Shown in pieces: positions 35,574-36,658 of a DNA stretch of 39,705 nucleotides. The stretch covers positions 1 through 39,705 of the forward strand of contig JAEUWI010000065.1 in NCBI GenBank assembly GCA_016791475.1. The letters run 5' to 3'. Under the pieces are notes generated by a model. It saw nothing but the letters and a program-made list of their open reading frames with translations. It was not told where the DNA came from and did no database searches. Position 1 is the first letter of the stretch, and every line of letters begins with the position of its first letter. The stretch is from Candidatus Hydrogenedentota bacterium. Its GTDB lineage: Bacteria; Hydrogenedentota; Hydrogenedentia; Hydrogenedentales; JAEUWI01. The position numbers and the translations under genes are program-made.

Positions 35574-35877
35574 AGGGACTGACGCACCCGCGATATCGGT
35601 GGAGATCTTCGTGATTCACACCCCGTCAATCGCCCCGATTGCGAGTCCGTGATGTCTCTGGGTGTGGCTGTCCCGTCGTGCGGGGAGTGGACTCGTCGCC
35701 AACATAAACAACCCAACAGGCAACACGTCGTCAGATCGATTTGACGCAGTAAACCGGGTTTACCTCCGCGAGCGACGGGACAGCCACACCCGGAGACAAC
35801 ACTCCGCATTGTCGGGGTTGGCCTTGGGTCGCAGGGCAAAACGTTCCAGTTAACACATGGTGGGTGCGTCAGTCCCT
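35574..35877. mobile_element. 304-bp symmetric MITE-like element, copy 1
   Basis: Terminal inverted repeats AGGGACTGACGCACCC (35574-35589) and its exact complement (35862-35877) enclose two 70-bp arms (35590-35659, 35792-35861) and a 132-bp core (35660-35791). The core begins with GGGTGTGGCTGTCCCGTCG and ends with its exact complement, giving a nested palindrome. No transposase or good open frame is inside, so it would be non-autonomous. No target-site duplication is evident. It begins 4 bp after the DUF5009 stop, and its right end supplies the last two bases of the ferredoxin stop codon. Copy 2 lies at 36355-36658. Confidence 0.88.
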
Positions 35878-36193
35878 ACTTGCCCTTTTTCCCGTCCGCA
35901 TCCGCACGTTCCAGCGCATCGTCCAGCAGGGCATCAACATCGTCGTGCCCATCTACTTTGCAGGCCCACACATTCCCCGGAAACACCAGCACATTCGGCC
36001 CCTTCGAACACTTGTCAATGCAGCCCGAAGGGTAAACCCGGACCACATCCTGAAGCTTTCGCTCCTTGATCCGTTTCTTTAATTGCGCCAGCACCTTCTC
36101 CCCGCCAAAGCGCGCACAGCAGTCATCCTTCTTCCCCCGATCACGGGTGCATACAAAAATGACTACCGGCTGGCGCAGATCGCGTTGTTTCAT
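35876..36193 (-). CDS. thioredoxin-like [2Fe-2S] ferredoxin
   Basis: A 105-residue protein with the ferredoxin-of-thioredoxin-fold pattern (Aquifex Fd4/NuoE-like). Candidate cluster ligands are Cys15 (VIFVCTRDRG), Cys25 or Cys26 (KKDDCCARFGG), Cys58 and Cys62 (SGCIDKCSKGP). A further Cys78 follows. It should carry electrons in the cytoplasm for an unidentified partner. The ATG at 36193 fits the domain start; GAGAG precedes it. TATACT on the minus strand (36253-36248) may be its -10, without a clear -35. The gene is bracketed by the two 304-bp elements, and its TAG stop is formed by a T plus the AG of the terminal repeat, so the C-terminus may have been altered by the insertion. Confidence 0.9.
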   Translation of the reverse strand: MKQRDLRQPVVIFVCTRDRGKKDDCCARFGGEKVLAQLKKRIKERKLQDVVRVYPSGCIDKCSKGPNVLVFPGNVWACKVDGHDDVDALLDDALERADADGKKGK

Positions 36194-36354
36194 GGCGGAC
36201 TCTCTCTCAACGGCGCGGCGGGTGGGAAGAAGACTGCGCCCGAGTCCAGTATACCGTGTGGCGGTCCGAGGCCGCGAATGATTTGTCAGCGAAACCGGAA
36301 ACATGAGAAGCGACGGCGACAAACTCCGGGTGTCGCCCTGTCGGGCGCGTCCGC

Positions 36355-36658
36355 AGGGACTGACGCACCCACCGTGGCTCGACCGGATCTACATGCACTG
36401 CGACCCAACACGTACGGCGACAAGGCGTCGTGTTATCTCTGGGTGTGGCTGTCCCGTCGTGCGGGGAGTGGACTCGTCGCCGCGATAAACAGCTCAACAG
36501 GCAACATGTCGTCTGGTCAATGTGGCACGGTAAACCCGGTTTCCCTCCGCGAGCGACGGGACAGCCACACCCGGCGACACCACGGACTCTCAGTCGGGAA
36601 AATTGATACGTTGGAAATCACGAAGGTCATTACCAAAAACGCGGGTGCGTCAGTCCCT
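36355..36658. mobile_element. 304-bp symmetric MITE-like element, copy 2, arms exchanged relative to copy 1
   Basis: Same length and plan as copy 1: 16-bp terminal repeats (36355-36370, 36643-36658), arms 36371-36440 and 36573-36642, core 36441-36572. Aligned by eye, the cores are in the same orientation and match at about 117 of 132 positions. The arms instead match crosswise: left arm 2 with the reverse complement of right arm 1 (47 of 70), right arm 2 reversed with left arm 1 (49 of 70); left against left is near random. So the core is inverted with respect to the rest. Confidence 0.88.

Follow-up and report, generated by a model that had tools for sequence, protein, structure and literature searches.

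Two 304-bp elements bracket a ferredoxin-like gene

The stretch of DNA analyzed here (39,705 nucleotides, referred to as the window) is contig C65 of the 7.7-Mb, 529-contig genome of a Candidatus Hydrogenedentota bacterium (G000). It carries two elements of identical length, C65a and C65b, on either side of a gene for a 2Fe-2S ferredoxin-like protein. The features of the locus are as follows.

35574..35877, plus strand: element C65a, 304 bp, made of an A-loop unit, a reversed core and a B-loop unit
35574..35678, plus strand: hairpin unit A of C65a, based on same-side covariation and a predicted stem (outer repeat 35574-35589, 70-nt loop A 35590-35659, inner repeat 35660-35678)
35679..35772, minus strand: middle of the C65a core (spacer), in the opposite orientation to that in every other classifiable copy
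35773..35877, minus strand: hairpin unit B of C65a, based on covariation, arm clusters and a predicted stem (inner repeat 35773-35791, loop B 35792-35861, outer repeat 35862-35877)
35876..35878, minus strand: stop codon (TAG) that ends the ferredoxin-like gene, made up of the terminal AG of C65a and the flanking T
35876..36192, minus strand: 2Fe-2S ferredoxin-like gene, with a match to NF041612 below the cut-off; the start at 36192 was read by eye, the listed open reading frame being 35876-36322
36355..36658, minus strand: element C65b, which on the minus strand reads as an A unit, a core in the usual orientation of the family and a B unit
36355..36459, plus strand: hairpin unit B of C65b (outer repeat 36355-36370, loop B 36371-36440, inner repeat 36441-36459)
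36460..36553, plus strand: middle of the C65b core (spacer)
36554..36658, minus strand: hairpin unit A of C65b (inner repeat 36554-36572, loop A 36573-36642, outer repeat 36643-36658)

A preliminary description of this locus had recognized two copies with the same 16/70/132/70/16 plan, cores that align directly and arms that align only crosswise, and all of this was confirmed. The copies lie at 35574-35877 and 36355-36658, offset by 781 bp. All four occurrences of the outer repeat, AGGGACTGACGCACCC, agree at 16 of 16 bases, as do those of the inner repeat, GGGTGTGGCTGTCCCGTCG, at 19 of 19. The 94-bp middles of the cores are 84% identical in direct alignment vs 40% when one is inverted. The arms are 70% and 67% identical as reverse complements vs 30% and 29% when compared on the same side; the crosswise local scores are 29 and 25, and shuffled sequences gave 7.3±1.4 with a maximum of 14. 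Allowing up to three mismatches, the outer repeat occurs four times in the window vs 0.5 expected, a count reached in none of 100 shuffles. The outer and inner repeats are also related to each other (12 of 16 positions), a point that the preliminary description left unused. The arms of C65a and C65b are opposite in orientation across the ferredoxin-like gene.

The elements belong to a dispersed family

A search of the whole of G000 with the outer 16-mer, allowing at most one mismatch, gave 35 matches vs none for the reversed control. By combining whole-element and repeat searches, at least 28 full elements were parsed, besides fragments and single units, and the copies are spread over many contigs. 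Most lie between long open frames or at their ends, so that the family is mostly extragenic; a few fall inside a longer overlapping open reading frame of unproven reality. The spacing of outer repeat, ~70 bp, inner repeat, ~100 bp, inner repeat, ~70 bp and outer repeat is nearly constant even where arms and core can no longer be aligned, except for longer cores in three copies. In one copy (locus L067:1496-1821, contig C80) the core is 22 bp longer and the left inner repeat is damaged (GGGTGTGGCTGTTTCT). Clustering of the arms separates two subfamilies: S1 (stem type ACCC), which comprises loops A and B, and S2, which comprises loop C (GGAC) and loop D (GCGC).

A sister species of the same genus (G002) has a far larger population, with ~174 exact outer repeats; its doublets are ~246 bp long owing to a shorter core. 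The exact core pattern had no match in 84,980 species genomes, a set from which the genome of the window itself may be absent.

Two loci in G000 have more complex arrangements. On contig C10 (21612-23111; L078:1513-3012), a pair of truncated doublets, in direct order, surrounds ~1.1 kb and forms a composite whose cargo resembles toxin-antitoxin genes (an HTH_37 protein, PF13744, and a fragment of a HicB-like antitoxin, PF15919). On contig C21 (L065:1518-2220), a ~97-bp gene-end stretch recurs after each element, and the element together with the gene end looks tandemly duplicated; the last gene-end copy continues as GGCGTAGTAGG, perhaps a site without the element.

Each element is a pair of inverted hairpin units

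Whichever repeats of C65a and C65b are compared, their variable stem bases are complementary, so these two copies alone cannot reveal which pairs are relevant. The family resolves the ambiguity. Across 28 elements, the four bases at the top of the stem are complementary between the outer and inner repeats of the same side at 221 of 224 positions, vs 91 of 112 between the two outer repeats and 89 of 112 between the two inner repeats. Where an element has different stem types on its two sides, each side pairs with itself: the stem tops of C5a are GCCC...GGGC on the left and GGAC...GTCC on the right, and those of C3 are GGAC...GTCC and GCGC...GCGC. The outer-to-outer and inner-to-inner symmetry of C65a and C65b is thus lost in other copies while same-side complementarity is kept. 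Among 81 distinct units from three congeneric species, 309 of 324 same-side pairs are complementary (mean 198 and maximum 224 in 2000 shuffles); these shuffles ignore relatedness among units, but the comparison within elements is independent of them.

The element is therefore not the nested palindrome of the preliminary description, a working structure that same-side covariation contradicts. It consists of two inverted ~105-nt hairpin units, each with an interrupted stem and a loop (the former arm), around a spacer (the former core). A unit has an unpaired A and five base pairs (GGGAC/GTCCC), followed by a conserved interruption in which TGA faces GCT with a T·T mismatch, and a short upper stem capped by the four covarying pairs; a loop of 68–73 nt follows, and the 3′ GTCG is unpaired. 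Pairing ends directly after the fourth stem-top base in the 81 units. The mismatched T is present in the outer repeat of all 81 and in the inner repeat of 80. Between units, identity reaches 96% at the 27 constant stem positions vs an average of 47% in the loops, and single-sequence folds of 41 units had a common fold only in the stem and none inside the loops. That the conserved repeats are recognized by a protein, as had been suggested, is very probable. The further suggestion that the outer part and the core move as separate nested elements conflicts with the covariation, which joins each outer repeat to the inner repeat of its own side; our searches turned up no intact core that lacked arms, and the only core-only match (C82) has degraded inner repeats.

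Element ends often carry a degenerate GTAG-like foot and supply stop codons

The three bases immediately outside the element read C-R-Y at 34 of 56 ends, vs a background of 8% (p = 6e-23). Together with the following AG they form a GTAG-like foot: RYAG is present at 39 of the 56 ends and exact GTAG at 16. No target-site duplication was evident when the printed flanks were inspected by eye. Open frames of at least 150 codons often terminate at the element: at 12 ends the neighboring frame stops at the TAG made of the flanking T and the AG of the element (TAG at −1), as the ferredoxin-like gene does at C65a, and eight frames stop at a TGA inside the outer repeat (+6). In all, 18 of the 56 ends of the 28 G000 elements supply the stop codon of a neighbor. 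The gene flanking the element is only 41–49% identical in the sister species, too distant for a DNA comparison with an empty site.

RAYT-like Y1 transposase genes lie beside the elements

G000 has 14 Y1 transposase-like matches, and a candidate cognate gene of the sort that the preliminary description had proposed to look for was found beside copies on contigs C8 and C21. The C8 RAYT (209 aa) has an S2 doublet on each side. The C21 RAYT (223 aa) is contained within its own AGGGACAGCCACC...GGTGGCTGTCCCT repeats, which fit a GGGGWSAS-like motif at 7 of 8 positions; it directly adjoins half an S1 element, beyond which lies a complete one, so that the S1 copies are on one side. We considered whether C21a might have arisen when the RAYT gene was inserted into an element whose left arm stayed intact, and rejected this since the left arm is undetectable upstream. 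In G002, the RAYT on contig C596 has doublets of the local type on both sides, and that on contig C264 lies beside local-type doublets that flank it at least in part. The arrangement that defines a REPtron, a cognate RAYT flanked by the same elements, is accordingly found at C8 and at G002 C596. Another G002 contig (C228, L160:1090-2700) contains a third related family of units (GGGGACTGCCTCGCC...GGCGGGGCTGTCCCC), similar in unit size, in arrays on both sides of a RAYT.

Both the C8 and C21 proteins match Y1_Tnp (PF01797) above the cut-off, and score 68.4 and 64.4 bits, respectively, against the REP-associated transposase model NF047646, below its 80-bit cut-off. In the RAYT alignment the HUH motif (H60-x-H62) and the catalytic Y119 are invariant. 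A sequence-only search of the PDB with the RAYT found no chain; the top PDB match of an AlphaFold2 model (pLDDT 83) was 4ER8, the complex of TnpA-REP with a REP hairpin (E = 4.4e-8).

RAYT relatives inside gene-spanning inverted repeats of the GGGACAG type occur in other genomes of the order and, in the same arrangement, in genomes of named planctomycetes, hydrogenedentotes and Holophagales. At two loci with gene-spanning nested repeats (L233 and L250), a gene in the position of the core was considered and discarded: single units or doublets stand on each side of the gene.

The elements are a variant of REPIN/BIME-type doublets

The preliminary description knew of no named element with this plan, but the plan is that of REPINs and BIMEs and of the dimerized TIR repeats of TIRYTs (PMC3116915, PMC3733652). 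REPINs or BIMEs are doublets of REP sequences, with a spacing of 71 bp in GI REPINs (Bertels & Rainey 2011, PMC3116915). The 28 elements share with them two inverted REP-like palindromes, with conserved ends of the 16-nt class, around a spacer that is less conserved but matters in its length, as well as dispersed copies and a specific association with RAYTs; a foot resembling GTAG lies outside the units at part of the ends. They differ in their loops: REP hairpins have loops of 2–5 nt in the model of PMC6006769, whereas those of the 81 units span 68–73 nt, resulting in a 304-bp doublet. Since the short loop is missing, we regard the elements as a variant of REPIN/BIME and not as plain members. 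The foot is also degenerate (CRYAG), and the copy number in G000 is low (~30).

In TIRtrons, the TIR repeats of the TIRYT gene also occur as dimers elsewhere in the genome (Di Nocera 2013, PMC3733652), and TIRYTs (TnpAY1 subclass 2.1) were reported to lack REP-like flanks (Quentin 2018, PMC6006769). The similarities to this group are ends of the GGGGWSAS kind, which the inner repeat CGGGACAG and the AGGGACAG of the C21 gene fit at 7 of 8 positions, and the RAYT-like genes within gene-spanning inverted repeats that have many members in the order. Unlike in TIRYTs, the outer and inner repeats are distinct here (ACTG vs ACAG, hence the T·T mismatch), the units form regular doublets of fixed length, and RAYTs of the C8 type are flanked by whole doublets.

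For TnpA-REP, an irregularity in the stem is required, the foot is GTAG and each RAYT is paired with its own REP family (PMC8266576, PMC6006769). The E. coli system (4ER8; PMC8266576) has in common with ours a Y1 HUH transposase, an imperfect hairpin with a conserved irregularity and, in degenerate form, a GTAG foot; its hairpins, however, are ~35 nt long, and the sequence similarity of the RAYT is remote (14% in the structural alignment). Among the papers searched, TIRYTs or TIRtrons are treated only in PMC3733652 and PMC6006769, and nothing links Hydrogenedentota with palindromes and a transposase.

C65a is a mosaic with a reversed core

When the arms are set in one order, the core has the same orientation in 15 of 16 classifiable copies, across the two subfamilies, and only in C65a is it flipped. 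The earlier claim that one core is inverted relative to its arms is therefore true of a single copy. The proviso attached to it, that other copies might show one arrangement only and the pair be an alignment artefact, holds in its first part for the 15 copies and fails in its second, as the flip in C65a is real.

The arms and the core of C65a differ in their affinities. The arms group with those of C1 in one clade (bootstrap 96, SH-aLRT 95), while the core, once turned, groups with C30, C40 and C65b in a poorly resolved core tree. In AU tests, whose groups were picked after the identities had been seen, placement of the C65a arms with the C30 group was rejected (p = 3.5e-5), as was, with modest support, placement of the core with C1 (p = 0.015). 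At diagnostic columns, arm A of C65a is C1-like in seven of eight cases, the eighth being 5 bp from the inner repeat, and the core is like C30, C40 and C65b in 11 of 11; arm B is mixed. To judge from these comparisons, C65a is a mosaic with arms of the C1 lineage and a reversed core of the C30/C40/C65b lineage.

As the lineage of the core differs from that of the arms, the core appears to have been replaced, in reverse, and the symmetry of the inner repeats would allow replacement in either orientation. Such replacement accounts for C65a better than inversion in situ would. The earlier proposal that the inversion arose by recombination at the internal repeats is thus likely to be right, but not in the form of one core turning round where it stood. 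C65b is a possible donor, being 781 bp away with a core in the same top-strand direction; by sequence, C30 is closer (87% identity vs 83% for C65b).

Proposed mechanism and alternative explanations

The explanation that we favor, and consider likely, is that the elements are non-autonomous mobile doublets of the REPIN/BIME kind that are recognized by RAYTs, and that the C65a core was replaced in reverse. Each unit would form a strand-specific single-stranded DNA hairpin with an unpaired 5′ foot (CRY-A, GTAG-like). The Y1 HUH transposase (RAYT/TIRYT; contigs C8 and C21) would most likely recognize the stem, its interruption and the foot on single-stranded DNA, as TnpA-REP does on REP hairpins, and would move or copy the doublets to the 3′ ends of genes; the elements are thus probably mobile, although neither an empty site nor an excision product was observed. 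Loops and core may serve mainly as spacers of set length, which would let their sequences drift. The core of C65a could have been exchanged for one of the C30/C40/C65b lineage, in reverse, through recombination or gene conversion at the inner repeats, which read alike from either side.

The perfect 19-bp inverted inner repeats around the core and the flipped state of C65a would also suit an invertible switch, turned repeatedly in place by a site-specific recombinase or by recombination between the inner repeats. We judge this very unlikely: a single orientation prevails in 15 of 16 copies of two subfamilies, the C65a core belongs to another lineage and is not a C1 core turned round, and only Y1 transposases were found beside the copies in a search aimed at that type. 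It is most improbable, too, that the reversed core is an assembly chimera. The genome is fragmented into 529 contigs and C65a and C65b share ~40 bp exactly, but no other core found matches that of C65a at more than 87–89% identity, which leaves no known copy from which a mis-join could have produced it.

Terminal inverted repeats, a length of ~300 bp and the lack of notable coding capacity are also what one would see in a plain double-stranded MITE that depends on a DDE transposase, with 16-bp TIRs (AGGGACTGACGC ends) and incidental inner repeats, and in size and non-coding nature the elements do resemble canonical MITEs. On each side, however, the outer repeat covaries with its inner repeat, giving two hairpins; the listed flanks have no visible target-site duplication, and copies have RAYT genes beside them, for Y1 and not DDE transposases, which leaves this reading with very little probability. 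A family of structured RNAs or terminators kept for regulation at the 3′ ends of genes, to which the RAYT association would be secondary, we regard as unlikely. Stem covariation suits RNA as well as single-stranded DNA, and the copies lie at gene 3′ ends, where they so often provide the stop codon. Against it, no Rfam match was better than chance at E ≤ 5, the loops have no common fold in single-sequence folding, the copies are scattered with diverged loops, and a third unit family accompanies a related RAYT in G002.

The doublets could also be read more boldly, as a new kind of substrate for a RAYT-class single-stranded DNA transposase, namely two long-looped hairpins of measured length in doublets that shuffle their modules. 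This reading, which we find rather doubtful, would entail a four-base code at the stem top that differs between subfamilies and between the halves of a doublet, and a spacer exchanged between copies in either orientation via the symmetric inner repeats.

Outside the well-studied gamma-proteobacteria, the family offers a clear instance of RAYT-associated doublets in which compensatory changes point out the recognition features: a constant basal stem with a conserved mismatch, a variable paired top and a free loop of fixed length. C65a is one clean example of spacer replacement and inversion, and suggests modular recombination of REPIN-like elements. If RAYT does act on hairpins with 70-nt loops, the accepted definition of its substrate, a short hairpin beside GTAG, would need widening.
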